A program made the translations under genes and the position numbers. Below the pieces are notes generated by a model. It did not search any database, had not been told where the DNA came from, and saw nothing but the letters and a program-made list of their open reading frames with translations. A stretch of 19,239 nt of DNA from Hondaea fermentalgiana (taxonomy: Eukaryota > Sar > Bigyra > Thraustochytrida > Thraustochytriidae): the NCBI GenBank assembly GCA_014084085.1, contig NPFB01000008.1, positions 505,939-525,177 on the forward strand, read 5' to 3'. Below are positions 3,648-19,239 of this stretch, one piece after another; the first letter of the stretch is position 1; each line of letters starts with the position of its first letter.

Positions 3648-4273
3648 GCTTTCTATCCCTTCCTCTGCAACGTGATTGGTCTCTGTCTGCACGGCCAGCA
3701 CCCCAAGTGAGGAAGAGGAGCCCCATCGATTTGGTCTGTGAAGCCCGTCATCTCTCGCGAACGGTAAACTGTGCCGCATTGCCGCGGTGTGCGAAACCCA
3801 TTTTCTAAATTGGCAATGATCACGTTATTTCTGCCATGCATTGTGTTTGGCCTCGATTTGCAGTCTGAATAGCTTTTTCGCTTCTCCTCGTGAGCGCCGT
3901 AGTCTGTGACGCATGTAAACTTCTTGTGAGAAATTGCCACATGGATTTTACTGATGATGATGGTGATGGTGATGGCGACGATGACGATGATGTTGATGAT
4001 GACGCGCAGCGATGAGTTCTTTGTCGCATCCTACGTCTCATTTGTCTTTGCCGTGCGACCAGTCCAAGGCGTGCATCATGAGCCCGATACACGTAGGCGT
4101 GCATGCCACCGTAGCGCGGGACTTGAATGTGTGTGCAGTGACAATGTGCCAATCGTCATTGTTTTGTCAATCAAGCAGAAAATCAAAGCAAAAGAAGGCC
4201 GGCCAACAGAAGTCGATCCGGATCCGGAGGCAGCGGCGACGAGAGGACGTGCGCGCAAAAGCGCCAAGGAAGG
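3648..4273. promoter_or_regulatory. Divergent promoter region between FAM177-like and RUN-ELMO-TLDc genes
   Basis: These 626 bases lie between two divergently transcribed start codons, so they probably hold both promoters and 5' UTRs. They contain a GAT/GGT trinucleotide-like repeat at 3952-4003. The minus-strand frame stays open up to an ATG at 3779, so part of 3648-3779 could be extra N-terminal coding sequence of the FAM177-like gene. No other gene is supported. Confidence 0.55.
3952..4003 (+). repeat. Degenerate GAT/GAC trinucleotide repeat
   Basis: This is a run of TGA-TGA-TGG-type triplets with GAC interruptions in the divergent intergenic region. It reads as low-complexity Ser or Asp in translation and is treated as non-coding. 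Confidence 0.8.
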
Positions 4274-7200
4274 ATGAAGAAGTCGTGGTGGTCGAGCGCC
4301 GCTGAGTCCGCGGGGGCCGCGGGCGAGGCCCTCGGCAGCCTCTCGAGGTCGCTCGCGACGAGCGCCATGTCGAACATGGGCGGTGACTCGGCACGGCAGG
4401 CGGCCCTGGCCGAGCAGGAGCGACTCGGCCTCTTGCGCGAGCTCAAGGCTGCCGTACGCGCTACGATTGAAGAGGCGAGCACACGGTCCAAGGATCTCGA
4501 CAAGGTCGAACTCGATGAGCGCGACGAGGCGATCCGGGAACTCCTTGTTTGGCTGGAAAGGTGTCTCTGGCACGGCTTGCGGCTCGAGGCCAAGGTGCGG
4601 CGAAAGTCCCCAGATGGTTCACGCTTTGTACTCGTCAAAGAGCCCGAGGTGAGTGTTTGGAACTGTGCGCAATACCTCCAGGGCAGTTCCGTGGACCCGC
4701 GTCTCGAAGCGCTGCTCACTGATGTCCAGGATCTGCTGTTTGTGCGATCCAACACGGGCAAGGGCCGAGCGTGGATGCGACTTGCGCTCAATGAAAAGGT
4801 ACTCGATCTTGCCGTGTCCAAACTGGCAGCGCAGGCCGTTGTCATGCGCGTCTACTATGAATCGTACGCGCTCATGCGCAATGAGGAGTCGAGCATGATC
4901 TTGGCGTCGATGCTGTCGGGCCTGAACGGTCTGGACATTAAAATTCACGTCGATGTCGAGTCTCTCGACACCTTGTCTCCTCCACTTCGAGGCGTCTCTG
5001 TACACGCGGCCTCCTCTTCTGCCTCGTTGTCGCAGCAACAGCGTTCGCAGCAGCAACAGCAGCAACAACAACAACAACAACAGCCGCTGAATCAGCAACA
5101 GCAGCCAACACAACGAGCGAGCGCAAATGGGGCACGACGAGGCAATGTCAAATTAGACATGGCAGCGCGGTCGCTTCGGCGTCGGGCGATAACGAAACGC
5201 AAACAGCTTGAGCAAGAACGTCGCAAGCTAGGGAAGTCAGTGGCGTTTCTGGGTAGCCCGCTCTCGCTCCAGGTGCAGACCGTGACTGTTTCGGCATTGG
5301 CGTACCAAGAGCCAAGTATTGCCGTACCCAACATTTTGCTGCGCGCGATTGCACTTTTTTGGCAGTATGCTCCACGCGAGCACGAGCCTACGGGTTTGTT
5401 CAGCTCTCGCGAAGGCCTGCGGCCTCATGTGATTGACGCGAAGCGGCGGCTCGACAGACTGCGCAGCGATGGCCTAACAATCTTCAGCCGCGTTGACGTG
5501 GACGTCGATCTGAGCACGGCGATGTCCAGTATGGCGGCTACGACTCGCGCTGGTTTGAGCGAGCAACTTCAGCCGCAAGTTGTCGGTGGCATCATTACGA
5601 CATTTTTGCAGGCCCTTCCCACATCGCTCATTCCCCAGGATGCCTACGAGCCTTTGTTGCTTTGCTCCCAGATTGATGACGCGGAGGCCCGTCGCCGTAA
5701 CATCGCGTTGCTCATCGAGACATTTCCATTGGGCCATCGCGCCGTGCTAGACCTTTTGACGCGGACGCTCGATCACCTTTTCGGAGGGTCGGCGGAGGCC
5801 TTTGCAGCTGCGGCTTCGTCTTTGGCGCCCGCGGTTCTGCGTCCTGCGGGTGACGCGCCGCGACAAAACGTTGTGGAGCGTCAAGTTCTAGGTGAGGTGT
5901 TTACACACCACGTGGAGTGTCTGGGTAAGACGAGACAAGATTTGCGTGAGACGCGCGCGAGGCTCGCAGACAAGTGGGCTCGGCTCCGACGCTATCGCGA
6001 TGATATGGCCACACCCGTTCGCGAGGTGACGCATGGCCCTGAACTCGACACATTGTGGGCGCTTCTTGACCCAAGCGAGGATGGAAAGGAAAAGGGCGCC
6101 GATGGTACAGAGGATGACGAGCAAGACAAGCGTGTGGACGAGCAAGGTGGCAAGGATGCGGATGCAAGTTCGCGAGACTGGACTGCGCGTGGTGCACAGT
6201 CCAAGAACATCTATGAAGACTTTCGTGGAGGCGGCAAATTTGCGCTGGAGATGGTGACGTATTTTGTGCGAGCACACCGTGCCAAGGCGCGGCTGATCAT
6301 CAAGTCGCAAAAGTACCCGTTCATTCGTGCTGCCTCGCAAGTGGCACGCCTTTGCAGCGATGTTCTGCAGCTTTCGGCGCAGGACCATACCACGTTGCCG
6401 GAGACGCCGTGGTGGGGACTCCTGAGCGAGAGTGATGCGGTGCCTCGGGTCTTTTGCATGTCCCTCTTGCTGCTCGACATTAACTTTTGCGAATCTGGCG
6501 CGAGTATCACGGACTTTGGTCGCGTCGCGCAGGAGACACGCATTCACATGTCGGATCTCCTCTCGCTCGGACCGACGAGCGTGAACAAGTTGTGGCACAG
6601 CTGGATCCAGCTGCGCGCGGAGCGCATGTTGTGGGCCAAGTCCCAGCAGGGCAACGCTGGTGGTGGTGCTCCTGCATCAGCAGCACCGACGCCAGCACCA
6701 GCACTAGCACCAGCACCAGCACCGCCGCAAGCCTCAGTCGGCGCCTCGACGCCTTTGAACGGCGAAGCACATTCGAGTGCAACGTCAGACGGCCCGAGGG
6801 TCACGCAAGAAGAGAATCAAGTGAGCGAGAAGACGCACATGGAATCGACAAGTACAAGTGTATCCGCAACAACAACAGCAAAGGAGGAGGGTAAACAGCA
6901 GCAGCAGGAGCAGCAGGAGGACGAAGCCGTGTACGCAGGCGTGGACCTAGACCAATTGCTCCCCGTGGTGCTTGGCTCCACGGAAACGTTGACCAAGACG
7001 CACATTGCCAAGCTCGAGGCGGCGTTACCGAGCGTGTACCAGGGCTACGACTGGAAGGCTGTCTTTTCCTCGAACGGAAGCGACCACGATATTGGCGATT
7101 TTTACAACAACGCCGAGGGGCATGAGGCGACACTGCTGGTTGTCCGAGATAAGGGCGGCGCTATCTTTGGCGGATTCTGCCCGCGCCCGTGGGCTTTGGA

Positions 7201-7480
7201 CAACGCCTCATACTATGGATCGCCGGAGACATTTTTGTTCACGCTGGAGCCCTCGTTTGCCGTGTATCGTGCGACGCAGCGTAACGCGTACTTTATGCTT
7301 GCGAACGAGGATTCTTTGGCGCTTGGCGGCGGCGGCGAGTTTGGGTTGTTTTTGGACGAGGATTTCCTGGGCGGCACGAGTGGGCCTTGCGAGACCTTTG
7401 ACTCGCCGTGCTTGGCGTCCGAGGCAGACTTTTCATGTGTCTCGACGGAGCTCTTTGCGCTTCAGGTCCGCGCGCGCTGA
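4274..7480 (+). CDS. RUN - RhoGAP-like - ELMO - TLDc multidomain protein
   Basis: This single open frame encodes 1068 residues. The RUN domain (about 83-232) shows LERCLWHGL, the K-G-R-A-W-M-R-L-A-L-N-E-K block (163-175) and EESSMILASMLSGLNGL. A poly-Q linker follows (about 254-278). The RhoGAP-like domain (about 331-524) shows VPNILLRAI, TGLFSS (373-378), ITTFLQALPTSLIP (441-454) and SLAPAVLRP (516-524), but the catalytic Arg, Lys and Arg positions are Ser377, Thr442 and Gln446. A basic helical stretch spans 546-579. The ELMO domain (about 588-775) has PELDTLW, W636-x3-G-x-Q, EDFRGGG (648-654; R651 is the expected arginine finger), YPF and ASITDFGRV. A disordered linker (about 790-890) precedes the TLDc domain (about 897-1066), with GYDWKAVF, FGGF, YYGSPETFLF and GEFGLFLDEDFLGGTSGPCETFDSPCL. 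RUN domains bind small GTPases, ELMO domains act as ARF/ARL GAPs, and TLDc proteins bind V-ATPase. An endomembrane regulator is inferred. Confidence 0.9.
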   Translation: MKKSWWSSAAESAGAAGEALGSLSRSLATSAMSNMGGDSARQAALAEQERLGLLRELKAAVRATIEEASTRSKDLDKVELDERDEAIRELLVWLERCLWHGLRLEAKVRRKSPDGSRFVLVKEPEVSVWNCAQYLQGSSVDPRLEALLTDVQDLLFVRSNTGKGRAWMRLALNEKVLDLAVSKLAAQAVVMRVYYESYALMRNEESSMILASMLSGLNGLDIKIHVDVESLDTLSPPLRGVSVHAASSSASLSQQQRSQQQQQQQQQQQQPLNQQQQPTQRASANGARRGNVKLDMAARSLRRRAITKRKQLEQERRKLGKSVAFLGSPLSLQVQTVTVSALAYQEPSIAVPNILLRAIALFWQYAPREHEPTGLFSSREGLRPHVIDAKRRLDRLRSDGLTIFSRVDVDVDLSTAMSSMAATTRAGLSEQLQPQVVGGIITTFLQALPTSLIPQDAYEPLLLCSQIDDAEARRRNIALLIETFPLGHRAVLDLLTRTLDHLFGGSAEAFAAAASSLAPAVLRPAGDAPRQNVVERQVLGEVFTHHVECLGKTRQDLRETRARLADKWARLRRYRDDMATPVREVTHGPELDTLWALLDPSEDGKEKGADGTEDDEQDKRVDEQGGKDADASSRDWTARGAQSKNIYEDFRGGGKFALEMVTYFVRAHRAKARLIIKSQKYPFIRAASQVARLCSDVLQLSAQDHTTLPETPWWGLLSESDAVPRVFCMSLLLLDINFCESGASITDFGRVAQETRIHMSDLLSLGPTSVNKLWHSWIQLRAERMLWAKSQQGNAGGGAPASAAPTPAPALAPAPAPPQASVGASTPLNGEAHSSATSDGPRVTQEENQVSEKTHMESTSTSVSATTTAKEEGKQQQQEQQEDEAVYAGVDLDQLLPVVLGSTETLTKTHIAKLEAALPSVYQGYDWKAVFSSNGSDHDIGDFYNNAEGHEATLLVVRDKGGAIFGGFCPRPWALDNASYYGSPETFLFTLEPSFAVYRATQRNAYFMLANEDSLALGGGGEFGLFLDEDFLGGTSGPCETFDSPCLASEADFSCVSTELFALQVRAR
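5032..5106 (+). repeat. CAG/CAA repeat encoding the poly-Q linker
   Basis: Mixed CAG and CAA codons encode Gln-rich sequence with one uninterrupted run of 12 Gln, between the RUN and RhoGAP-like domains. CAA interruptions would be expected to limit repeat instability. Confidence 0.9.
6681..6724 (+). repeat. CAGCAC/GCACCA repeat encoding the Ala-Pro linker
   Basis: This is a degenerate six-base repeat within the coding sequence. It encodes alternating Ala-Pro in the disordered linker between the ELMO and TLDc domains. Confidence 0.85.
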
Positions 7481-7481
7481 G

Positions 7482-7535
7482 TGGTCAGGCCTGGCGTGGC
7501 CTGGGGCTTGGCCAAGCCTGGGGCTTGCCTGACCA
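7482..7535 (+). other. Nested inverted repeat just after the RUN-ELMO-TLDc stop codon
   Basis: A 9-base arm TGGTCAGGC (7482-7490) pairs perfectly with GCCTGACCA (7527-7535). The loop holds a perfect 14-base palindrome GGCTTGGCCAAGCC (7505-7518). The block also carries two direct repeats: CCTGGGGCTTG (7500-7510, 7518-7528) and CAGGCCTGGCG (7486-7496, 7534-7544). It would be the start of the 3' UTR and could fold into a stable hairpin. Function is unknown. Confidence 0.65.
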
Positions 7536-7835
7536 GGCCTGGCGAGGAGGGCAAATTGCCCAGCAGTACTAGGCCTCCTAAAGAACAGGAAAGAAACCAC
7601 GAGTGCAGGGCCTGCTCCACCTGTCCACCACCGAGTTTCCGTGGGAAGGCCAAGCAAGCGCGCAAGCGTGCAAGCGTGCAACTGCAGCTAACAGGTGTAT
7701 AGAACTTGAAGAAACCAGAAAGTAAAGCTCAGGCGCTCAGGCCATCCTTGATACAATCGGCGGCACGATGGGTGCGTTCGTCAGAGTTCATTGTTTGCTC
7801 AACCCGATGTCGTTTCATCAAAGGTTGGTTTGGCG

Positions 7836-7860
7836 GATCGATCGATCGATCGTTCGATCG
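7836..7860 (+). repeat. GATC tetranucleotide array
   Basis: Four perfect GATC units are followed by degenerate GTTC/GATC units. Similar palindromic GATC runs occur around 8513-8523, 12057-12068, 17694-17708 and 18651-18734. Confidence 0.85.
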
Positions 7861-8570
7861 ACCGATGATCCAGGCTTCTTCTTTTTCTCCTTTGCTTGCT
7901 CTTTCCCACCACGAGCTTGCCTTTCGAGGCCTTCCTTCTTCATTCCCGAGGGGTGGGTGTGTGGGTTGCTGAAGCTCCCGGCGGTCGTCTTCGCGAGAGT
8001 GGCCAGACGCCCGCCCTGCTGGCGCGGCTCGAGGTCGGCCCCTTCTTTTTCTCGCCATTCTTTGCTCCCTCGCACGAACGTACTGCCAGCCAGACTGCGA
8101 GCGCGAGCCGAGTGAGAACTAGCTGGCGTGCTGTCTGTCTATAGTGCCAACTTTGCGCGCTAGCTTCCTTCGCGTCTTCGTTCCTTCGTGGCTTCCTTGC
8201 TTCGTTCCTGCGGTCCTTTGTTATACTTGCTTCGCCCCTCCAGAATCGCGCTTTCGTCCGGGGCGGGCGGCGGGTGCATCGCGCGTCGCAGCGTCGCCTT
8301 CTCCGCGAGCGAGCGCCGCGTTTTGGCGCGGACCCGCGAAGCCGCTGCCGTCGCGCACTTGATTTCTTTTTCTGGTCTCCCGCGGGGCTCGTGCCAGAGG
8401 GCGGGAGGGAGGGCGGGAGGCAGAGAGAGACTGGTTGGGTGCCGGAGAGGGACGGAGCGAGGAGCATGGAGATCCATCCTCGCCTCGCGCGGCCCATTTC
8501 ATGGATTTGCAGCGATCGATCGAACGGTTTCCAGGGCCCAGAACGGCGTCTTCACAGTGCACGGCAGGAA

Positions 8571-8584
8571 GGCAGGCAGGCAGG
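8571..8584 (+). repeat. GGCA tetranucleotide array
   Basis: Three full GGCA units plus a partial one, preceded by a degenerate GGCAGGAA unit. Confidence 0.75.
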
Positions 8585-8990
8585 CTTCCTTCGATCGCAG
8601 TCGCGTCCGTGAATATTGCCAACTGGAAGCGCGGCTCTAGGCCTACCTGCTCCAGCACCCTCGCCGCTCGTCCGGGCCCTCGAGGCGCTCCGGAAGCGAG
8701 GCGAGGCGAGCGCGCAGTTGTTTGCTGAATTGTTTCTTCGTTTTCAAATCATTCATTCATGTTTGTCTGTGCGAGCGAGCAAGGCTTGCGAACTTACGGT
8801 CTCCTGGCCGCCAGGAAGCTGCTGCAGGAGCCTCTCATCTCCGTTATCTCATGTCCTCCGTCCCACACGCAGCACGTCCGAGGACTTCTTTAGCAGGGCC
8901 GGCCCGGCCGAGGCTTCTTTTCCCGCGCACGTTTCGAGCCGCCAGAGTCCGCCCGTTGGTTCGCGGGCCGTCGCGAGCTCGCGACAAGTC

Positions 8991-9030
8991 TGGTCTGGTC
9001 TGGTCTGGTCTGGTCTGGTCTGATCTGGTC
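8991..9030 (+). repeat. (TGGTC)8 pentanucleotide array
   Basis: Eight five-base units, the seventh being the variant TGATC. An array of AGACC units, related to the complementary strand, lies at 18056-18090. Confidence 0.9.
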
Positions 9031-10306
9031 AGGCCGGGCCTCGCTCGGCTCTATGCAAGACTTTGCACCCGACTCGTCTTGATCGTATTGCCCTCGTACC
9101 GCACGCCACTGCACGGCGCTCTACTTTCCTTCCAGCCCTGCCTATATCGTTGTAAAACTGCCCAGGGTTTGGGTTCGCAGCGTGTCCGATGCCGGCGCGG
9201 ATGTTGTTGTTGTTTTTCTTCTTGTCCTGCACTGCAGCTGGCTGGCTGGCTTCCTGTCGGAGATTGCTCGTCTATTTTCCGAGCGCAGCCAGGGTCGCCT
9301 GGCTGGTGCAACAGCGCGCGAGCTGCCAGGTAAGTATAAAGGTGTTGTAGCGCCAGCTTGGATTTGTTTTTTTTGTGTTGCTCGTCGTGACGGTTTTGAC
9401 GTTCCCGGCTTCGATTGTTTGTATACCCTCGGGAGACCCGTCGCAGTTTCGGGCTGCGATCTTTAGCCACTCGGCGGCCTTGCTACATTATCTTCGTTGC
9501 TTGCAGTTGCCAAAATCTTCTGATCGTGCCATGCTCGCGGTCTCTCGATCAATCGTCGATTGCATGTTCAGGTCTCCCTTCTTGCACAATTCGCTGCTGC
9601 GGAAACTGGGGGATGAATTTTGGTGCGTGCGGCACGCCAGTGCAGCTATTGCTTGCCCGCTTTCTTTCACTGCGGTGCGTGCCACAGACTCGGGGAAGAT
9701 CATGCGCCGTCGATGCGCCGCCTCGGCCCGAAAACCCCTGCAGCGAGCACAAGGTGCGCGGGAGAAGGCTAGGCTGAGCTGGACTGAGGCGCGGCATGCC
9801 CCCCGTTCCATCGCGCGTTCCATCGAAGCCCGCGTGAGCGAGAGGAGGACAAAGATGATGTGCAAATCGACCAAGCTTATTTTTTGCACCGCGACGATGA
9901 TGGACGTCTCCCTCGGCACGGCCAACGCGACGCAGCTCGACAAGCAATGGCAGCGAGGCGAGACCGAGCTCGTCGCGTTGTGCATGAAAAGATAACCAGC
10001 GTGGCGAGGCCAGTGATGCGTGGAGAGAAGTCCTCGCGGTGACGACCGCGACAACAAGCCCGCCAGTCACCGCACACGCCAGTCGAGTGACCGGCGACGC
10101 AGAGGTATCCTCGCTTTGTGCTCAAGGTAGGTAGCACGCTGGCAAGCAGCAAGTAGTAGCGAAGAGCGAGCAAGCGGTGCGTCATCCTGCTCCCCGCGTG
10201 CGTCTTGTTTCTTTCTCAAGGTCTGCTCGCTCTCGACGTGCAGCTCCAGCGGGGCGGGGAGATGAGTGCGGCCTGGCTAGTTGCCTGGCTGGCTGGCAAC
10301 CAAGGG
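9031..10306. other. Gene-free stretch; weak coding-like hints only
   Basis: No recognisable gene. A GCCAG|GTAAGTAT sequence at about 9325-9337 is a good donor-like site. The plus frame open over 9375-9995 begins with GTG. Its last 33 codons before the TAA (9896-9995) end mostly in G or C, but the product resembles no family and the opposite strand is also open. I do not call a gene. Confidence 0.4.
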
Positions 10307-10351
10307 GACGTGACGTGACGCGACGCGACGCGACGCGACGCGACGCGACGC
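10307..10351 (+). repeat. (GACGT)2(GACGC)7 pentanucleotide array
   Basis: Nine contiguous five-base units, two GACGT followed by seven GACGC. It is very CpG-rich. Confidence 0.9.
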
Positions 10352-10801
10352 GCATTGCGACGGAGCTGGAGCTGATGAGAGATGCTGATGGTTCAAATAA
10401 CTACAGGCATGCTGCGCTGTGCGTCGCGGTCGGCCATCGAGGGGAGGACGACAGAGCGCGTGCCCGGGCCGGCGCTCAAGCTGCGCGGCCGCTGCCGCGT
10501 CCGTCGCCCTGCCTGCCTGCCTAGCTTGCCCAACGCGCGGGCGTGGGAGCGGTGTCATGCGCTTTCAAAACCGAGCCATGCACCCATCCACGACTCATCG
10601 CCCATCCTCCCTCCCTCCGCCGTCGCCCTTCACACCGACCGACCGATGGACCAGTCGCCACGGCCGCCCGCCCGCCCAATCGACGGAGCGCTTCTTCTCT
10701 CTCGCGCGCGTCCCTGCCACGCCTCCGTCGCGTGCGGTGCGTGCAGGGACGGCGCTTTGTGCGCCGTCGCGCGGCCGGGTCGAAGCATTGGCAGCTGCAA
10801 C

Positions 10802-10990
10802 ACGAAAAGAAGTTGAGAGGAGCAATGTAAGAAAAGAAGGAAAAAAAGAAGAAAAGAAAGAACTCGAACTCGAACTCGAACTCGAACTCTAACTCGATGT
10901 TGGTCGAAGAAGAACTCAAACTCGAACTCGAACTCAAAGAAGAACCCGAACCCAAACAAGAAGAAAGAAGAAGAAGAAGAAGAAGAAAAG
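10802..10990 (+). repeat. A/G-rich tract with GAACTC hexamer arrays
   Basis: About 190 bases strongly depleted in T on the plus strand. They include two clusters of CGAACT-type hexamers (about 10860-10897 and 10914-10935), GAACCC variants (10941-10952) and a (GAA)n run (10960-10988). On the minus strand it is T/C-rich and could serve as an extended polypyrimidine tract. Translations are pure low complexity (RVRVRV, EFEFEF). Confidence 0.85.
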
Positions 10991-11690
10991 TATAGTTGTT
11001 CTTTGGAAAGAACCCGGTCGAGTGACCATGCGCGTCGAGGAAACCCGGTTGCAGGGGCAAAATGAACACCTCGACGCGCACTTGGGAGCTCGCGTCTCGT
11101 GCGAGGTGCGCGACGCAGACTCGCTCTCACTCTCGATCCGCCATCCCGACTGCGCCTGCGGCGTTGACCCGGACGCGCAGCGGGAGGGAGTGATGAGGGA
11201 GGGACGCGGCGAGGCGAGGCGAGGCAGAAAAAGAGGCAGCGAGGGAGGGACGGAGATGTCGATCGCTGACATGAGATGAGCTCTCAGGCACTCGCTCGCT
11301 CGATCGCTTGATCTTCCGCGACCGCCATGATCGCCACCGCGCCGCACACGTCCGCGTTCCGAGTTTCATTCTCTTGCGCTCGCTCCCTCAAAGCCCGCCA
11401 GCCCGGACAGGCTACATTTATTCGCCCACGAGGAAAACGTCCCAGGCGCTCAGTGGAGCTTGGCGACGAGGTCGATCGTCATAGAACGACCAACCTAACC
11501 CCCAAGTCCAAGTGGCCGTCCGGCCGCGCTGGCGCCGCATCTTCTGGACCGTGCCCGTCTGTCCGTCGCGCCCAATCCCTCGCCCGCTCGCGCGGGCGTC
11601 CCCGCGCCCGGCGTCCCGGCTGTCGCGGCGGGGAAGCGTCGCGCGCGTCCGGGTTTCCGGGGTTCGTGCTGGCGGAGAAGACAGACAGAC
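10991..11690. other. Gene-free stretch upstream of the candidate mini-gene
   Basis: No gene recognised. It contains G/A-rich degenerate GGGAG and GGCGA repeats (about 11180-11255) and a short GACA run (11680-11690) directly before the ATG at 11691. If the candidate exons at 11691 are real, this would be their promoter/5' UTR. Confidence 0.4.
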
Positions 11691-11734
11691 ATGTCCATGT
11701 CCAAGTCGAAGATCTACGACGTCACTAGCCCCTG
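11691..11734 (+). CDS. Candidate first coding exon (MSMSKSKIYDVTSP...)
   Basis: An ATG with G at -3 opens 14 complete codons, 13 of which end in G or C, the pattern of the HDH gene. They encode a Lys/Ser-rich start. The frame would stop at TAG, but that TAG lies inside a good donor CCTG|GTAGGT at 11735. The next GC3-rich segment starts 57 bases later. The product is unrecognised. The spliced frames disagree by one base (see findings), so this could be a real exon with a sequencing indel in the CCCC run, a different splice pattern, or chance. Confidence 0.3.
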
Positions 11735-11790
11735 GTAGGTCGGGAGGGAGCTGCCCCGTTCGTGATCTTTCTTTCCTTCATCATGCGCAA

Positions 11791-11874
11791 GGCAAGACGC
11801 CGTTGCACGGCCAGAAGAAGAGCAACGACAACTTGAAGGACTCGGAGGGGAAGAGCAAGTTTTGGAGCGTCGAG
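11791..11874 (+). CDS. Candidate second coding exon (GKTPLHGQKKSNDNLK...)
   Basis: Following a pyrimidine-rich stretch (11766-11782) and CAAG, 28 codons run to GAG|GTGGTT at 11875. All but one end in G or C. The encoded stretch ends with KSKFWSVE. Composition matches the segment at 11691-11734. Beyond 11875 the codon pattern decays. I do not recognise the protein and cannot define a downstream exon with confidence. Confidence 0.3.
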
Positions 11875-12804
11875 GTGGTTGGTCCAAAGGGGGCCAGAGG
11901 CCTCTCTGCCGCGCCTCGCCGACGCGTCTCGCGCGGCGAGGTTTGCAACGCCTCGCCTCTGACGCGAAGCCAGGAGCTCGACGTCGGTCGCCAACTTGAA
12001 GAAGCAGCCCGGACGAAGGAAGAGCGCAAAGAAACAGCCAGCGTTTGGTTGCAAGTGATCGATCGACCGAGCGACCGACGCACCGAGCGATCGATTCGAA
12101 CCAGCGAACCTGTGACGCGACGCAAGCGGCCTGCAGCGTGTGCACGCGTGTCTCTCGCCGTCGACCTCCGGGACTTGGTTGCGGCTCGCGGTTAAAGCGG
12201 GGCATTTGTATCAACCGAGTCGAGCGCGGCCTGAAGGATGATGCGCGTCGAGTGGAGTCGCTCTGAGTGGAGTCGCATTACGTCGAGTCTGCACCTGGGT
12301 CAGACAGAGATCCCGAGTCGCGTCGCGTCCGTCGTCACGCCCAGGATCATGCAAAGAAAGAACACAACCCATCGGCAATGATAATTGCTGTTGCTTGGGG
12401 ATGATGCTCAATCAACGATGACAGTGAGGCTGAAACGCAGCACGAGTACGACAAAGCATATTTTAGCGCTTCGCTCCTTTGCGCTGGGGCGTCGCAAGAG
12501 CTCGATTCCACTCCGACTCGGCCTGGCTTGGCTCTTCTTGGTTTGGAGATCCTCGGTCTGGGCTCCGTGGCATGGAGCTTTTTTGCTACCGTCCCGGGAC
12601 GAACTGTCCCTGCGAATTTGAGTCGTCGGCGGACTCTTGCGCGGCGCGATTCGAACCAGGCAGGCAGGGCACTGCAGGTCGTGCCCGCTCTTGAGCACCT
12701 TCTCGCGAGGACAAGCGTGCGCGTCCTTGGCTGCAGCCAGTCAGCCAGCCAGCCGACCCGAGGCTGTCTGTAAGCGCGCTTCTACGTTGTAGAAATCTGG
12801 CTTG
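11875..12804. other. Mostly gene-free stretch
   Basis: A possible third coding segment follows a CCAG at about 11973 (ELDVGRQLEEAARTKEERK...), but a competing frame is equally open. The rest holds a GATC/GACC-type repeat (12056-12096) and a tandem GAGTGGAGTCGC pair (about 12249-12276). An open frame of 66 codons from the ATG at 12418 to 12621 resembles nothing known. Confidence 0.35.
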
Positions 12805-12826
12805 CTCTCTCTCTCTCTCTCTCTCT
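12805..12826 (+). repeat. (CT)11 microsatellite
   Basis: Eleven CT units, the same length and orientation as the tracts at 1777-1798 and 16620-16641. Confidence 0.9.
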
Positions 12827-13017
12827 TTGGTTGGCTGGGTTCAGTCGCTCGCTGCAGCTGGTAGAGCAGAGCAGGCTGCATGCCACCAGCGTTGCAATCT
12901 TGATGTTGATCTTGATGTTGATCGCGGACGGCGGGTGGGGCTTCCTTCTCTGCGGCCGAGCCATGAGTCGCCTAAAATTTCTTTCTTGGCGGCCTCCAGA
13001 GCCACGAGTCCTTTTGC

Positions 13018-13052
13018 TTGCCTTGCCTTGCCTTGCCTTGCCTTGTCTTGCC
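13018..13052 (+). repeat. (TTGCC)7 pentanucleotide array
   Basis: Seven five-base units, the sixth being TTGTC. Flanked by partial units. Confidence 0.9.
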
Positions 13053-13460
13053 TTATTGCCTCAAGACACGAATGCAGCCTGGCTGCTGCGCAGCTCGAAG
13101 GATCGACACAGGCTCGAGGCGTTTTCCCGCGTCTACTTTCTTTTCTCTCCTTTTCTTTCGCTCGCGTCTCCCGCCCGAGCAAGATTTGCAACGCCAGCCG
13201 AGTCGTGATGACGCCGGCCCCTCGCACCCTGCCGCCTCGAAAGAGGGACTCGCTCGCTCGATGTGCGTGAATGAAAGCCTCCCCGCGCGGCGCTGTAACC
13301 ATCCCGACGCGGCATCACGACCAAAGATCCTCGCCATGCAAGAGCAACGAGCAGCAGCATGGCAGCAGCCGCCGCCTTCGGTAGCCGAGTGATCCGTCGA
13401 TCCCTCGACCGTTCTCCGCCGCCCCATCGTCGACGCAGCGCGCGGCTCGCTCACCTAAAC

Positions 13461-13483
13461 GCTCGGCTCGGCTCGGCTCGGCT
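13461..13483 (+). repeat. CTCGG pentanucleotide array
   Basis: Four tandem CTCGG units with a partial unit at each end, followed by CAG and CGG triplet runs to about 13528. Confidence 0.85.
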
Positions 13484-14196
13484 TCGATGTCGAGCAGCAG
13501 CAGCAGCGGCTGCGGCGGCGGCGGCACCTCGACGCGGCGGATCTTGTCGTCTCGCGGCGCGTCGCGGCCTCCGCCTCTGCCGCGTCATGGCATCGCAGCG
13601 CGCTGCATGCATGCTCGTCAGGCACGCGTGCGTACGTCCACCCCGCGCCGATTTCCGAGCGCCACGAACGACAGGAGCTTCGTGTCGTGTCGCGCCCGCC
13701 CGCCTGCCTGCCAGCCAGGACCTCCGCCGCGCTCGTGCTGCGCGTGAGCTGCTCTTGCGCGCGGTCGGCTCGCCTGATCTCGGTCTCGGACCGGGTGGGC
13801 GTGGGCGATCGAAGCAGTGACCTCCCCTCGGTGTACCAGGGTGCCGGAGCGAGATGTGGACTGTGCGCAAAGGCGACTTCGGGCCCGGCGGCTCCGGCCT
13901 CGCCATCAATCTCGAGCTCGCGCTGGCCGCCCTCGTGGTCCGCGTCGAGGTCCGCGTCGAGGGCGAGGGAGGCCCGGGTCGTCGAGGATTTTTGGGCGGC
14001 GAGGCGGGACCGGGCCGGCGGGCTGGCTAGGCGCCGGCCTAGGACGGCGCAGGGTCTGAGGCAGCGGGCGGGCCGCGAGCAGTAGGGCCCAGGGCACCAC
14101 CTGCCAGCTGGTGCTGGTGCTACAGCTGCTGCTGGCAGTGGCTCGAGCATCGCCTTCCAAAGTTTCGAATGCCGCGCGTGTGAAGGTATAGTAGTA

Positions 14197-14237
14197 ATTC
14201 ATTCATTGATTCATTCATTCACTGATCCATCCATTCG
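14197..14237 (+). repeat. ATTC/ATCC tetranucleotide repeat
   Basis: A degenerate ATTC array with GATT and ATCC interruptions, one of the few AT-rich islands in this part. Confidence 0.85.
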
Positions 14238-15245
14238 TGCGTTTGTTTGCAGAACTGCAATTTCATTCGTAGTCGCATCGCATCGCATCAAAACGCATCG
14301 CCCGCGGAGGTGCAGGTTTTCCGGGTTGTCGTCGTCGTCGCGCGAATCCTAAAAAGCCAAGCAGCCAACTGGCCCAGTATACATACAGAGAGCGAAGCAA
14401 ACCTCCAAAGGGCCAAGGTCCACTAGCAGCAGGAGCGGTGGCTTCCTGGCGCTGAGCGAGCGCAGTCCACGGCGCAGATCTGCCGTCCATCTTCTTCGCA
14501 CCGCAGGCGCCTGCGAATTGGTTTGCGTGCTCCACGCCCAGCGTGGTGCCGATCAGTTTCGCGCAGCCTCGCGGTCCGTGGTTGTCCGTCTTGCTGCTGC
14601 AAATTCAAATCGGCCATTCCTGGCGTCGTTGTCGTCATCGTCGTTGCCGCCGCCGCCGCGAAAAGTCCGCGTCCGGATTCGCAACGGTTTGCCGCAGACG
14701 CCCGCATTGCTTCATTTACGCGAGCAGTACGTACGCGCGCACGCAGGGGCGCACGCACATCCGCGCGCGCCATTCGCCACGCGATTGAAAGGAAGCAAGG
14801 AAGACTTGAGAATTGAATTGATTCGAGCAGAGAGCTCGAAGGGGACGTACGTGCCTGCGCGTACGTACTCGAGGCTGCTCGGCGTAAGAAAACTCTGGCT
14901 AGTGGCAACCGTGCGCCGCTGCCGGGTTATTGCAGTATCTTCTACATCTTTCGAAGGAAGCCCGCGCGGTCGCACAACCGCGCGCGCAGTGCAGGACTGC
15001 TTGCTCGGCCCCAATCTGGAAGCCTAAAACCTGAGGCTTGCTTGCATCATACGGTGTGGCAAACCCCTTCGCCCTCGCGCCACCTAGGCCTGGCTTGCCC
15101 TGGCTTACCCTGGCTTGGCTTATCAGCATTGCCTGAAGGAGGAAAAAACGAGCTCGTTAAGCCAACAAAGTGGTGGCAATCTGGTCTGCTCGAAAAAGAC
15201 CCACTTTGCAAAAGCACAAAGCGCACGGTACCACGGCACGGCGCG
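14238..15245. other. Gene-free stretch with small hairpins
   Basis: No recognised gene. It contains a GCATC repeat (14274-14290), a palindromic ACGTACG...CGTACGT pair (14845-14851/14860-14866), an 8-bp GC hairpin (14963-14984) and a CTGGCTTGCC-type repeat (15088-15120). The minus-strand frame over 14423-14908 is open, but the product resembles no family. Confidence 0.45.
14963..14984 (+). other. Perfect 8-bp GC-rich hairpin
   Basis: CGCGCGGT (14963-14970) and ACCGCGCG (14977-14984) pair around a 6-base loop CGCACA. There is no T-run after it and no context that suggests function. Confidence 0.5.
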
Positions 15246-15273
15246 GCACGCACGCACGCACGCACGCACGCAC
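15246..15273 (+). repeat. (GCAC)7 tetranucleotide array
   Basis: Seven perfect GCAC units. Confidence 0.9.
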
Positions 15274-16619
15274 GGTTTTCCTTTCCCCATCTCTCACTCC
15301 CGCCGGCTGCGCTGGGTGCACGCAGCTACTGCTGGCAGTGAGTGGCTGCTGCTTTTTCTTCCTTCCTGCTACAGACCTCCGCATCCGCGGCATCGAGGAG
15401 ATCATCCATCCGCATCCGCCGTATCCACACACGTCGCGCGGATTCGATCTGCGCTCGCGAACCGGGGCGGGCGCGCGCGCGAGGGAGAGAGAGAGAGATC
15501 TCCATCGTTCGAGCTTGTTTGCTTTCTTTTCTTTCGACATCGACACGCGCCATCTGGCTTGGCCCGCGCGCTGCAGCCAGCTGGTGCCGGCCGTGGCGGG
15601 CCGTGGCGAGCACGATACGTCCAAGCAGCAGCAGCAACAGCAGCAGCAGTAGCAGCAGATCTCGAACGAGGTTGTCGACTTGCCCTTGTTTGCCTGCGAA
15701 TTTGCTTGCTTGCCTGCGAATTTCGTCGTGTAGGCGCCGCCGGCGCGTGAACAGACGAGGTACTCTCTCCGTGCGACGGCGCGTTTTGACTGCCGTGGCT
15801 GGCGTCCGCACGAGGTCGTGATCAACGAGCGAGCGAGCGAGCGAGCGGGACCAGCCGTTCGGCCACGGGTGCCAGGGACCGGAGCGGAGCGGAGTCGGGC
15901 CTGGCCTCTCATCTCCGGGTCCGCTCGCAATTATCCCATCACTTCTCCGTTCATACTCTATTACCTGTGCCTGCGCCTGCGTCACTCGCTGTCAATCAAT
16001 CAATTAACCAGCGAAGCGCAATTTGCAAAGCCGCCTTCTTCGCATCGCGCCTCGCGTCTTGCGGCGACCAGGTCGTGGCGCGGAGCGACGTGGAGGCCTG
16101 GCGTGGCGAGAGGGATCTCGTAACTCACCCAACAGCCCGCCCGCCAGCTTCAGACAGGAAGGAACGGGCGCGGGCTTCGTATTTTTCTTAAACCCCACCT
16201 CCTCCGCCTCCGCCTCCGTCTCCGTGCACGTCGTGCAACTATCTTACCGCAACTCCCGGAACTCCAGCGGCCGGACGCGCAACGCACGGACGTGAACCGC
16301 CGCCAGCCAAAGACAAGGCAAGAGTTCAAGGCGAAGCGGCAAGGCGAAGCGAAGCGAGAAGGCTTTTGTTTTGCATTTTTTACTGTACCATTTCGTACCG
16401 ACCAAGCAAAAAGTGAAGCAGAAGACTGCGCGGATCGCGCACGGACCGAATCCGGAACCGCTAGAGCGGGCCGCCGGAGCAAAAGGTAAGGACCAGAGAA
16501 GAAGGGTAGCGAAGAGAACGGGAACGGAGAACAGGGAGAACAGGAACGGGAAGAGGGGGCATCGCGCGAGTTCTGGGACTGCGGGGCCTCCCGAGTTCGT
16601 GTTCCACATTTTGCTTTTG
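15274..16619. other. Gene-free stretch
   Basis: No recognised gene. A polypyrimidine stretch ending CTACAG (15354-15374) is followed by an open, GC3-rich segment (LRIRGIEEIIHPHPPYP... from 15377), but no donor is clear. It also holds GA-rich repeats (15482-15500), CAG repeats (15625-15658), the GAGC array and CCTCCG repeats (16198-16224). An AAAAG|GTAAGG donor-like site lies at about 16482-16493. Confidence 0.4.
15827..15846 (+). repeat. (GAGC)5 tetranucleotide array
   Basis: Five perfect GAGC units. Confidence 0.9.
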
Positions 16620-16641
16620 CTCTCTCTCTCTCTCTCTCTCT
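16620..16641 (+). repeat. (CT)11 microsatellite
   Basis: Eleven CT units followed by about 80 bases of pyrimidine-rich sequence. Confidence 0.9.
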
Positions 16642-16940
16642 GTGCTTTTCCTTTCTTTTTTCCTTTCGGATTTTTCCCTTTCGATTCGATCCCTTTTTCG
16701 TTCGGTCGATTCTTTCGCATTTATCTGGCTTGCAGCTCGTTTCGCATCCTGTGTGCGTGCGTGTGTGCGTGCGTTTAAAGTGGCCACCGCGAGTCGCTTC
16801 GGCTGGCGCTTAGCTCCGTGCTGGTTCTTTTCTTTTCACCGCCAGCTGTTCTAGTAGGGCCCGTCTCGTTCGTCCTCGTTCAAGGCGGTTCTATTCAGCC
16901 CAGTTCACCAGTCTTCAGCCGCCGTCGCTTCGCTTCGCAC

Positions 16941-16994
16941 TGCTTTGCTTTTGCTTTTGCTTTTGCTTTTGCTTTTGCTTTTCTTTTCTTTTCT
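16941..16994 (+). repeat. TTTTGC hexanucleotide array
   Basis: Five perfect TTTTGC units (16949-16978), flanked by a TTTGC unit and TTTTC units; pyrimidine-rich on the plus strand. Confidence 0.9.
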
Positions 16995-17098
16995 TCTTTC
17001 ACAACCCAACCCGCCGCAGACCGACGCGCTGCTGGCTGGTCGCTGTTCTCTCCCTCGTAGGGAGCAGTTCGCGGGTGCTGCTTGGTTGACCTGGCTGG

Positions 17099-17120
17099 CT
17101 GACTGACTGACTGCCTTGCT

Positions 17121-17154
<34 letters not shown>
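17099..17154 (+). repeat. CTGA and (GACA)8 tetranucleotide arrays
   Basis: A CTGA run (17099-17112) is followed after 8 bases by eight GACA units (17121-17152). Confidence 0.9.
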
Positions 17155-17155
<1 letters not shown>

Positions 17156-17326
17156 CGCAGCCGACGGAAAGTCCAAAGAAAGAGCTCGATCGCCGCCGCG
17201 CCCCGCACGATTCTACACCTAGCTCCGCTCCCGCTTCCGCCCCCGCTCCCGCGTTGCTACTCGAACTCCCCAAGCGAACCCGGCACCCAAGCAAGCCAGC
17301 ACGCAGAGCAGACGTTGCACGAAGCC

Positions 17327-17373
17327 CAAGCAAGCAAGCAAGCAAGCAAGCAAGTAAGGAAGGAAGCAAGCAA
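17327..17373 (+). repeat. (CAAG)7 tetranucleotide array
   Basis: Seven perfect CAAG units (17327-17354), then degenerate TAAG, GAAG and CAAG units. Confidence 0.9.
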
Positions 17374-17944
17374 ACGTTGAATCAACCAACCAAGCAATCA
17401 ATCAACAGGAGTCCTTGGCTTGGCCAGGCCAGAAGTGCGCCCGCGCTCCAGGACGAGGTCGAGCTCGAACTGCGACGTCGGACGCGAGGCCACGCGCCCG
17501 CTACCGGCAACGCAGCTGCGTCGAGACCGGCCAAAAAATAAAAAAAAGCAAAGCAAGGGACGAAAAAGAAACTGTCGCCTGTTTGAGCGGGTGTCCATCC
17601 CGTCCATCCGGCTGGCGAGGGAGCTTCCATCCGTCCATCGGCCGCTCTCGTCCGTTCATTCTTCGTTCATTCCATCGTCCGCAGCACTTCTTCGATCCAT
17701 CGATCGATCCGTCGATCTTCGTCTTCTGTCTCAATCCCGCCGTCTGCTGCTGCGCGCCTGATCACGTCCATTCATTCACCTGCGACTTCATCCACCAGTG
17801 CGCATCGTCAGGCGGTACGAAGAACCAACGAGGTCTAGTGCATCCCGGGTCGAGCAACCGCGCCATCGGGCGAGGGAGCGAGCCGCAGCTCGCTCGCTCG
17901 ACGCACCGGGCCTGCGCGGCCGACGCAGAACGGTAGACCTGCGG

Positions 17945-17971
17945 AGGCGAGGCGAGGCGAAGCGAAGCGAA
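17945..17971 (+). repeat. AGGCG/AAGCG pentanucleotide array
   Basis: Three AGGCG units followed by AAGCG units, a purine-rich array. Confidence 0.85.
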
Positions 17972-18055
17972 GCTTGGGTTGTCCTGCCCGTCGCGGCCGA
18001 GCACGCAGCCCGTGCGCCTGCGCAGACTCGACGGCGAAAATCAACCCGGCGAGGC

Positions 18056-18090
18056 AGACCAGACCAGACCAGACCAGACCAGATCAGACC
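18056..18090 (+). repeat. (AGACC)7 pentanucleotide array
   Basis: Seven five-base units with AGATC as the sixth. The unit is a circular permutation of the reverse complement of TGGTC, found at 8991-9030. Confidence 0.9.
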
Positions 18091-18115
18091 TGGAGCAAAA
18101 GAATCAGATTGGAGC

Positions 18116-18168
18116 GAAGAGGAGAGGAGAGGAAAGGAGAGGAGAGGAGAGGGGGGAGAAGAAAAGAG
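18116..18168 (+). repeat. Pure purine tract (GAGGA-type)
   Basis: About 50 bases of only A and G, with GGAGA units and a G6 run. Confidence 0.85.
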
Positions 18169-18265
18169 CAGCGCCAGCGCGTCCGTCCATCGGCAGGGCA
18201 GAAGTTGCGGCGGCACGAAGACGAAGAACTTTTGCAGCCAGGTCCGTCCGGCTGGGACCTGAGAG

Positions 18266-18338
18266 TTTTTGTTTTTCTTTCTTTCTTCTCCTTTTTCTTT
18301 TTCTTTTCCTTTTTCTTTTCTTTTTCTTTTTCTTTTCC
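18266..18338 (+). repeat. Long polypyrimidine tract before a splice-acceptor-like CAG
   Basis: About 73 bases of T and C with a single G, made of CTTTTT/CTTTT units and ending in CCAG at 18337-18340. This is what a strong 3' splice site looks like. Confidence 0.8.
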
Positions 18339-18340
18339 AG

Positions 18341-18527
18341 GACTGACGACCCGAAGTGGGTTGCGCTGCTGCGTGTTGTGCGCCCGCTGCAGCTGCCTGC
18401 ACCACAGACCAGCTCGGTCCTGCTGCGGCTGCTGCTGCTGCCCCTGGTCTCTAGGCTCGAGTCTGCCGCTGCTGCTGCTGCTGCTGCAGCACTGGAACTG
18501 GGCAAACAGACGCGTCGCGCGTCGCAG
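18341..18527 (+). CDS. Candidate internal coding exon
   Basis: The segment starts after the polypyrimidine-CCAG acceptor and ends at CGCAG|GTAGGA. The frame from 18342 is open for 62 codons (TDDPKWVALLRVVRPLQLP..., a Leu-rich part, poly-Ala, then LELGKQTRRASQ), mostly ending in G or C. Acceptor and donor define an exon of ordinary length. The Leu and Ala runs come from CTG/GCT repeats, so much of the signal is low complexity. No family is recognised, and flanking exons cannot be fixed. Confidence 0.25.
18468..18485 (+). repeat. (GCT)6 trinucleotide run
   Basis: Six GCT units; CTG/GCT-rich sequence extends over about 18420-18490. Confidence 0.9.
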
Positions 18528-18650
18528 GTAGGATCCGTTCACGACACAAGAGCAGCTGGGTGCCGGCTGCGGCACGCCAGCTTCTTGTCCCGCTTTTGCC
18601 GCGAGGTAAACTACTACTACGACGACAGTCATCCCTCTGTTGGTCTCGTC

Positions 18651-18734
18651 GATCGATCGATTGATTGATCGTATCGACCGATTGATTGTCTGATTGATTG
18701 AATCATTGTGATCAAGCGATCGATCGATTGATCA
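18651..18734 (+). repeat. GATC/GATT degenerate array
   Basis: Perfect GATC runs at both ends (18651-18660 and 18717-18727) flank degenerate GATT units. GATC is self-complementary, so the ends could pair. Confidence 0.85.
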
Positions 18735-19017
18735 GCCAGTCAACGCCGCATCGTTTCCATTTATCCCCCTTTCCCAACAGCAAGCAAGCAAGTAGGCGAG
18801 TAAGCAGGCAGACAAGCAGAAGAAGGTGGCAAGGAGCGAGGTCTGTCTTCCAGACCCCGAATCTCAAGGCGAGTCGTGTCGACCCTCACTTGGCCGAGCC
18901 CTCGTCCTGCTGGCCGAGACTCGCGCCCGAGAGGGACACCCTCGACATCCTTGTCTGGCTGACCCACACGCCGCGAGCGAGCGAGCGAGCGACGCAGGGC
19001 GACGGTCTCGACCTCAC

Positions 19018-19020
<3 letters not shown>

Positions 19021-19056
<36 letters not shown>
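19021..19056 (+). repeat. (GTGCTC)6 hexanucleotide array
   Basis: Six perfect GTGCTC units. They translate to RARARA or CSCSCS, typical repeat artefacts. Confidence 0.9.
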
Positions 19057-19058
<2 letters not shown>

Positions 19059-19239
19059 GCGAGAGCTCGTCGTCGCGGCGCGTCGCGTTGATTGCTCATC
19101 GCAGTCGCCGCTCCTGCCAAACAAAGCAAAGCAGAGGAAACCAAACCAAAGCAGGCCAGTCAGACCTTGTGGGTCCGCTCGCGTCGCTCGCGTCCACCCA
19201 CGCGGCGCCGTCTGTCTGTCTGTCAGCCTGCCCGCCCGC

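Follow-up and report, generated by a model that had tools for sequence, protein, structure and literature searches.

A conserved RUN, RhoGAP-like, ELMO and TLDc domain protein in Hondaea fermentalgiana, a candidate Arf/Arl-regulating scaffold

The window analysed here is a stretch of 19,239 nucleotides from the thraustochytrid Hondaea fermentalgiana (assembly GCA_014084085.1, contig NPFB01000008.1, positions 505,939 to 525,177 of the forward strand). It contains an uninterrupted frame of 1068 codons, as the original prediction had claimed, whose product is referred to below as P0001. The nearest in-frame stop upstream lies at 4139 and position 4274 is the first in-frame ATG downstream of it. 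An open frame of this length would be expected by chance with a probability of about 5e-17 (an independent-base estimate from the base composition). The claim that four domain signatures lie in one protein is borne out by Pfam, which recovers RUN, RhoGAP, ELMO_CED12 and TLD in that order from the N- to the C-terminus, all over curated cut-offs and with both RhoGAP and ELMO among them. The motifs quoted in support of the prediction were likewise located in the translation: KGRAWMRLALNEK at residues 163-175, W636 and DFRGGG (649-654) of the ELMO motif, FLQALPTSLIP, SLAPAVLRP, and GLFLDEDFLGG...CETFD. P0001 is the sole full-length copy found in the 36 Mb genome. A PfaA-type match in this genome (461.9 bits, family cut-off 1010.1) hints at a thraustochytrid but carries no weight for lineage, since 11 of 14 control genomes give sub-threshold matches to that family too. 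The features of P0001 are as follows.

4274..7480, + strand: open reading frame of P0001, 1068 aa, RUN-RhoGAP-ELMO-TLDc, no internal stop
4541..4954, + strand: RUN domain, residues 90-227 (Pfam 75.9 bits, cut-off 22), with basic block K163/R165/R169
4982..5149, + strand: linker with polyglutamine, residues 237-292 (34%, 25% and 14% identical to P0002, P0003 and P0005)
5309..5845, + strand: RhoGAP-like domain, residues ~346-524 (Pfam match 428-502, 36.5 bits, cut-off 24.5)
5402..5404, + strand: S377, aligned to the arginine finger (GIF-R) in three of four MAFFT runs and by hhalign
5489..5491, + strand: R406, part of RVDVDVD in an inserted segment and identical in 4/4 sequences; alternative finger in one of four MAFFT runs (E-INS-i)
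6026..6526, + strand: ELMO_CED12 domain, residues 585-751 (Pfam 66.5 bits, cut-off 23.3)
6179..6256, + strand: ELMO GAP-type motif WTARGAQSKNIYEDFRGGGKFALEMV with R651 (9/13 consensus positions; Arg invariant in 4/4)
6659..6931, + strand: second variable linker, residues 796-886 (20% and 27% identical to P0002 and P0003)
6977..7462, + strand: TLDc domain, residues 902-1063 (Pfam PF07534, 140.3 bits, cut-off 24.5)
7082..7090, + strand: D937-H938-D939, changed equivalent of the Ncoa7 G815-T-S817 loop (numbering from PMC8608904)

All four domains were also found by Pfam in P0002 (62% identical to P0001 over 98%) and P0003 (39% over 93%). P0005 carries RUN-RhoGAP-ELMO, and TLDc is absent from its predicted protein, so either TLDc may be dispensable for the module or this gene model is incomplete. 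The number of relatives is a lower bound, since one protein search missed P0003 and another missed P0005; scoring in the three protein searches was confined to the candidates with the most words in common (7988, 7991 and 7994 of them). The third match in the relatives search, P0004 from Drosophila hydei, is a LysM-TLD protein and served solely as an additional TLDc row in the residue comparison. Between P0001 and P0002 or P0003, respectively, identity is 71 and 52% in RUN, 74 and 41% in RhoGAP, 67 and 56% in the ELMO core, and 78 and 53% in TLDc. Of the four domains of P0003 and the three of P0005, RhoGAP is the one least like its counterpart in P0001 (41% and 28%). Since at least two further sequences preserve this order of domains, P0001 looks like a real, undescribed signalling protein and no accident of one genome. 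In keeping with the prediction, which knew of no protein with this order, no description of it was found in the literature searched.

Among solved structures, the RUN domain of P0001 matches RUFY3 (E 7.9e-14) and PLEKHM1 (E 5.5e-10), and it shares with PLEKHM1, SKIP and RUFY3 the basic G(R/K)xRAW block. K163, R165 and R169 of this block are invariant in all four family sequences (P0001, P0002, P0003 and P0005), and phmmer aligns them with GRCRAWLR of PLEKHM1. The available portion of PMC5379943 describes R117/R119 (as a double mutant) and R123 of PLEKHM1 as important for Arl8b binding; with a constant offset of 9 applied between chain and protein numbering, the equivalents of all three are basic in 4/4 sequences. 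The block is not specific to Arl8, however, as it also occurs in Rab6-interacting protein 1 (GKARAWVR). A further difference from PLEKHM1, SKIP and RUFY3 is that no Arl8 orthologue was detected in the Hondaea genome, where human ARL8B gave 30 matches, the best-scoring of them 33% identical and none above 41%, a value reached over 71 residues, in an exon-wise search that a heavily split gene might escape. Both observations weaken the case for RUN as an Arl8 reader, and the latter implies that its partner is another GTPase or that Arl8 was missed.

The Pfam match of the RhoGAP-like domain spans profile positions 47-121 of 148 and leaves the arginine-finger half unmatched. A profile of the region built from the four sequences finds solved RhoGAPs (best 1f7c, E 4.6e-10), and hhalign gives a RhoGAP probability of 98.6%, with the finger half aligned at low confidence per residue. 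The predicted structure of full-length P0001 is poor (mean pLDDT 43.7) and that of residues 325-800, with a mean pLDDT of 56.9, does not settle the position of the finger. When a low-confidence model was submitted to Foldseek, the best 50 of 201 rows were all RhoGAP-containing and included no ELMO entry; the best E was 1.4e-3, and no row of the 201 reached E <= 0.001. The canonical 'GIFR' finger most likely reads GLFS in P0001, the position of S377 being S, A, A and S in P0001, P0002, P0003 and P0005. In the same order, the K122-type residue is T, V, R and K and the R126-type residue Q, S, R and L (K319 and R323 in the numbering of PMC8305018), P0003 alone being basic at both. These positions are K and R in all five finger-bearing RhoGAPs of the same genome. 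The N194-type residue is A, V, A and V or, in one run of four (L-INS-i, all ten), E, E, D and V. The comparison set comprised 10 of the 13 genome matches, half of them (L016, L017, L018, L019 and L023) forming the canonical set with a GIFR-type finger; left out were L025, which is the query, and the pair L020 and L024, which look like fragments of a single gene. Judged by these residues the RhoGAP domain is degenerate. Pfam and the profile search uphold the predicted domain, whereas its role as a working input is unsupported because family members differ at the canonical active-site residues. OCRL and PI3K p85 offer a parallel: their RhoGAP-like domains, described as inactive in the part of PMC8305018 consulted, give weak hits with the family profile (E 0.0052 and 0.025). 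Canonical RhoGAPs such as 1f7c score better, however, and the P0001 family has an extra insertion of ~30 residues that includes RVDVDVD.

The ELMO domain was compared with the reference motif WX3G(F/W)QX3PXTD(F/L)RGXG, which has 13 scored positions. P0001, P0002, P0003 and P0005 score 9, 9, 9 and 10, and 300 shuffled versions of P0001 reached 7 at most. The motif deviates from the consensus at P, at T and, in three of the four sequences, at the aromatic residue after G; other ELMO loci of the genome score 12/13 (L009), 11/13 (L011) and 6/13 (a third locus). According to the available text of PMC8483735, the arginine of this motif is essential for the GAP activity of mammalian ELMODs and required for function in two plant ELMODs. 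All four sequences, down to 35% overall identity, keep both the arginine and the FRGGG core unchanged, which would be hard to explain if they were not in use. With the domain above its Pfam cut-off and R651 kept throughout, the ELMO-bearing P0001 is probably an Arf/Arl GAP. ELMOD1-3 and plant MCR/ELMOD_A share this ELMO domain with a catalytic-type Arg in (D/E)FRGxG but consist of ELMO only, whereas that of P0001 sits inside a four-domain protein. The DOCK partners ELMO1 and ELMO2, the only solved ELMO domains found by the family ELMO profile (best E 6.5e-7), are multi-domain like P0001, but human ELMO1 has Thr where P0001 has Arg (PDB alignment). ELMO1 is not known to have a RUN, RhoGAP or TLDc domain.

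What is encoded, then, is one chain of RUN, a degenerate RhoGAP fold, ELMO with a catalytic-type Arg and TLDc, with variable linkers connecting them. The function I propose, to which I give an even chance, is that of a conserved scaffold in endomembrane traffic, encoded by a single-copy gene. RUN and the RhoGAP-like domain would bind GTP-loaded small GTPases and so position the protein on a membrane, ELMO would act through R651 as an Arf/Arl GAP and switch off a local Arf-family GTPase, and the C-terminal TLDc would dock a further partner, for which V-ATPase is a candidate by family precedent. The net effect would be to convert membrane-GTPase identity into a local loss of Arf/Arl signal beside a TLDc-bound machine. 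Several observations argue for this scaffold: the domains are well conserved compared with the linkers, the ELMO Arg is kept in 4/4 with motif scores above those of shuffled sequence, the RUN basic block is invariant, and both the ARF family and subunit E of V-ATPase have matches in the genome. It is weakened by an ELMO motif that is off consensus while L009 and L011 are close to it, by the lack of a detected Arl8 orthologue, by the unconserved RhoGAP active-site residues, by the P0005 predicted protein without TLDc, and by the poor full-length structure model.

The unusual domain order is the sole hint that adjacent genes might have been joined by assembly error or intron read-through. I regard such an artefact as extremely improbable and rejected it, given 1068 codons without a stop or frame break, an identical order in P0002 and P0003, which come from other sources, and co-linear matches of P0002 to the P0001 locus in pieces 11-280 and 268-1037. 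A double GAP, in which RhoGAP works through R406 as a displaced finger alongside an active ELMO, seems very unlikely, although it has something to recommend it. R406, V407, V409, D410 and V411 are invariant in 4/4, E-INS-i places R406 on the canonical finger, and the 36 residues (by subtraction) from R406 to the K122-type T442 compare with 37, 38, 40 and 42 in L018, L019, L016 and L023 (L017, with its own insertion, has 61). In addition, the K122- and R126-type residues of P0003 are both Arg, P0005 keeps the K122-type Lys, and loss of the N194-type residue is not decisive, as finger-bearing L018 and L023 have Ala there. Nevertheless, L-INS-i (on two sets), G-INS-i and hhalign (with low confidence digits) all put S377 at the finger, and the K122- and R126-type residues vary; the invariant R406 may or may not be a stand-in finger. 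Conversely, P0001 could be a pure adaptor whose RUN, RhoGAP-like and ELMO domains bind partners without GAP activity. There is precedent in the RhoGAP-like domains of OCRL and p85 and in the Arg-less ELMO of ELMO1, and the degenerate RhoGAP residues and partly eroded ELMO motif would fit, but the invariant ELMO Arg and FRGGG core, at a position where ELMO1 carries Thr, make this reading unlikely.

Another possibility, close to the original prediction and in my view rather unlikely, is that P0001 regulates V-ATPase under GTPase control in the manner of OXR1, NCOA7 and mEAK7, with RUN, RhoGAP and ELMO signalling to the pump via TLDc. TLDc proteins have been tied to V-ATPase (in the portions consulted of PMC8608904 and PMC9174246), subunit E is encoded in the genome, and the TLDc of P0001 is closest, among solved structures, to that of NCOA7 (E 1.6e-29). 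Four other mutation-tested positions of Ncoa7, the buried G845, G896, L926 and E938, are G, G, L and E in P0001, P0002 and P0003. The surface loop has changed: the Ncoa7 G815/S817 positions read D/D, D/D and K/D in these three TLDc-bearing members, while the Gly is kept in 6/7 and the Ser in 5/7 other TLDc loci of the genome. In the Ncoa7 mutation tests given in the available part of PMC8608904, G815A alone abolished V-ATPase binding and S817A lowered it. Not every likely binder has the Ser, however: it is Ala in the OXR-type P0004 and Gly in the solved OXR5. In pull-downs reported in the same portion of PMC8608904, neither the Tbc1d24 nor the Tldc1 TLDc domain, in purified form, bound V-ATPase, so a bare TLDc domain does not imply this partner. 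The changed loop weakens the V-ATPase link, given that most other TLDc loci keep the Gly, and a divergent or different TLDc partner now appears about as likely as V-ATPase. Of the predicted scaffold coupling small-GTPase inputs to V-ATPase, then, the single chain and the key residues of RUN and ELMO find support, but RhoGAP as a working input and TLDc as the V-ATPase link are unsupported as stated; with the four buried positions kept, the TLDc may still bind V-ATPase.

Returning to the proposed scaffold, the conservation of such a natural fusion suggests that RUN, RhoGAP-like, ELMO and TLDc act on one membrane. It thereby predicts that Arf/Arl GAP activity is functionally tied to the partners of TLDc, a tie that other eukaryotes may also have in trans. 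A bolder version, which I hold to be doubtful, is a protist family in which an active Arf/Arl-GAP ELMO and two GTPase-reading modules are hard-wired to a TLDc re-tuned for a new target or V-ATPase state. If true, Arf/Arl identity would be directly coupled to organelle machinery, a coupling that no TLDc protein is known to have. The family also bears on the recruitment of TLDc proteins and the role of the modules at their N-termini, and its changed G815/S817 loop is a natural variant for probing the determinants of TLDc-V-ATPase binding. The well-known TLDc proteins have LysM, TBC or other N-termini.

P0001 differs from OXR1 and NCOA7, which combine LysM and TLDc, in its changed V-ATPase loop residues. 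A plain OXR1 orthologue was rejected, as Pfam reported no LysM in P0001, P0002 or P0003 and a LysM-TLDc protein is encoded by another frame of the genome (L003). TBC1D24 and Skywalker (TBC plus TLDc) resemble P0001 in that a regulator domain for small GTPases precedes the C-terminal TLDc, but theirs is a Rab-GAP-type TBC in place of RUN, RhoGAP-like and ELMO. The TLDc of Skywalker matches P0001 more weakly (E 9.6e-14) than does that of NCOA7, and the genome has its own TBC-TLDc frame (L007). As for existing annotation, P0003 bears the automatic name 'Oxidation resistance protein 1 (Protein C7), partial'.

The protein P0001 is encoded by a single open frame of 1068 codons at 4274-7480 (+) and joins a RUN, a RhoGAP, an ELMO and a TLDc domain in that order. 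Translation shows no interruption. An in-frame stop at 4139 precedes the frame, no in-frame ATG lies between 4139 and 4274, and the five remaining frames over the region contain 15 to 32 stops each. Translation and Pfam bear out the motifs and coordinates of the original prediction, and the profile searches it proposed recover all four domains in the claimed order, each over the curated cut-off. The four-module anatomy is near certain.

Features of P0001 and the DNA upstream of it
137-1489, + strand: histidinol dehydrogenase gene (PF00815, 411.4 bits)
1843-2868, + strand: 341-residue frame with Pfam matches to GXWXG/DUF4334 below threshold
4274-7480, + strand: open frame of P0001
P0001 residues 90-227: RUN (75.9 bits)
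P0001 residues 428-502: RhoGAP (36.5 bits)
P0001 residues 585-751: ELMO_CED12 (66.5 bits)
P0001 residues 902-1063: TLD (140.3 bits)

P0001 combines known modules in a conserved arrangement of which no description was found in the open-access literature searched (5.39 million papers); the original prediction likewise knew of no described protein with this order. There, the four domains are nowhere named together and "ELMO domain" is not co-mentioned with "TLDc"; "RUN domain" does co-occur with "ELMO domain" in one paper and with "TLDc" in three. Protein searches covered about 5.8 billion proteins, scoring the roughly 8000 candidates with most shared words in each. The first identified P0002 (jgi; 62% identity over 98% of P0001) and P0003 (ncbi; 39% over 93%), both with the identical Pfam domain set and order, as well as P0004, a Drosophila LysM-TLD protein. 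The database name of P0003 is "Oxidation resistance protein 1 (Protein C7), partial [Durusdinium trenchii]", in which the Durusdinium attribution may reflect a contaminant. Querying with the alignment of these first three sequences (P0001, P0002, P0003) then added P0005 (768 aa), which has RUN, RhoGAP and ELMO but no TLDc; a third search found no further relatives among its approximately 8000 scored candidates. Because of that limit, and because each later search missed a known relative, the family may well be larger than the sequences found.

Identity between P0001 and P0002/P0003 is high in the domains (RUN 71/52%, RhoGAP 74/41%, ELMO core 67/56%, TLDc 78/53%) and low in the polyQ linker (34/25%) and the ELMO-TLDc linker (20/27%), the pattern expected of functional domains joined by flexible linkers. 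P0005 is 40%, 28% and 48% identical to P0001 in RUN, RhoGAP and ELMO core. With P0002 as query, the gene is single in the 36.0 Mb Hondaea genome: two of seven matches are co-linear at the P0001 locus and five lie elsewhere (four in TLDc, one in RUN). Counting the P0001 gene, the genome gave 8 TLDc, 4 ELMO, 3 RUN and 13 RhoGAP matches, and at the other TLDc, ELMO and RUN loci, 12 in all, Pfam found no second pairing among these domains, although six of the 12 frames are cut by locus ends.

The assignment of a RhoGAP fold is good. A profile of the region matches solved structures (E 4.6e-10), and hhalign gives 98.6% probability against ten RhoGAP frames of the same genome. Foldseek with a low-confidence model of residues 325-800 (mean pLDDT 56.9) gave no match at E <= 0.001, and all 50 matches listed of 201 were RhoGAP-containing entries. 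In hhalign, as in three of four MAFFT runs, the arginine-finger position falls on S377, the residue being S, A, A and S in P0001, P0002, P0003 and P0005. The remaining run, tolerant of large insertions, instead places R406 there, an invariant Arg within the stretch GLTIFSRVDVDVD; R406 lies 36 residues ahead of the K122-type position, near the spacing of 37-42 in four Hondaea domains and unlike the 61 in a fifth (L017). The K122-type residue is T, V, R and K and the R126-type residue Q, S, R and L in the four family sequences, as against K and R in all five finger-bearing Hondaea domains. At the N194-type position, three of four MAFFT runs give A, V, A and V, a loss that alone says little since two of those five domains also lack the Asn. 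The predicted active site of P0001 is therefore non-canonical, and full RhoGAP activity is unlikely. P0003 has basic residues at both K122- and R126-type places, so an active member of the family is conceivable. Three other Hondaea RhoGAP-type domains (L022, L026, L027) carry V, V and M in place of the finger Arg, so the lack of a finger is no rarity among Hondaea RhoGAP folds.

For the ELMO domain, the GAP consensus, WX3G(F/W)QX3PXTD(F/L)RGXGX3LX2L, includes a catalytic-type Arg (PMC8483735, in excerpt). P0001, P0002 and P0003 each match 9 of 13 positions and P0005 matches 10; shuffled P0001 reached at most 7 (n=300), and the three other Hondaea ELMO loci match 12, 11 and 6. The motif P and T are missing from all four family sequences and the aromatic from three. 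Despite these losses, Arf/Arl GAP activity appears the likelier use of the domain, because the catalytic-type R651 is invariant in all four, the motif score exceeds the shuffles and human ELMO1 has Thr at this position in the PDB alignment.

The RUN domain is similar to those of RUFY3 (E 7.9e-14) and PLEKHM1 (E 5.5e-10), and K163, R165 and R169 align with the basic block of PLEKHM1, in which R117/R119 (as a double mutant) and R123 are important to Arl8b binding (PMC5379943, in excerpt). Rab6-interacting protein 1 also carries this block, which therefore cannot identify the partner of P0001. Human ARL8B gave 30 matches in Hondaea, none recognised as an Arl8 orthologue; the top-scoring was 33% identical and the maximum identity 41%, over a 71-residue piece.

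The proposed link to the V-ATPase would run through TLDc. The nearest solved relative of this domain is NCOA7 (E 1.6e-29), in which six positions were tested by mutation: G815, S817, G845, G896, L926 and E938 (PMC8608904, in excerpt). In favour of the link, the equivalents of the last four are retained in P0001, P0002 and P0003; against it, the G815/S817 surface-loop pair is changed in all three, to D/D, D/D and K/D. Printed alignments show HG-x-S retained in NCOA7, zebrafish OXR2 and mEAK7. Solved OXR5 keeps the Gly and lacks the Ser, and P0004 has Gly and Ala, which makes the Gly the telling position. Among the seven other Hondaea TLDc loci, six retain the Gly and five the Ser; L006 lacks both, and its profile match begins only at position 53. 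With the Gly gone from every TLDc-bearing member (P0001, P0002 and P0003), the proposed V-ATPase step is weakened, though binding is still conceivable. OXR5 (PDB 36qx_T) is also the top PDB match of the mEAK7-like L004.

The most likely role, which I would put at about an even chance, is that P0001 would serve as a membrane scaffold, would have Arf/Arl GAP activity and would carry a re-tuned TLDc.

Beyond the gene, Pfam shows no domain in any of the six ORFs it was run on from 8.7 to 18.7 kb, no tRNA was found in 7500-19239 (about 11.7 kb), and 29 of the window's 33 tandem-repeat rows fall there; this part is either gene-poor or intron-rich. Elsewhere in the genome, L005 (G000:C163:150506-154054) is a further unusual TLDc pairing, with a CBS domain, and L007 (G000:C158:82245-85616) is a TBC1D24-like TBC-TLDc frame whose TLDc is apparently interrupted by a long low-complexity insertion. 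L015 (G000:C168:25634-28819) is a sorting nexin (PXA-RUN-PX-Nexin_C) with a RUN match where its animal relatives have RGS.
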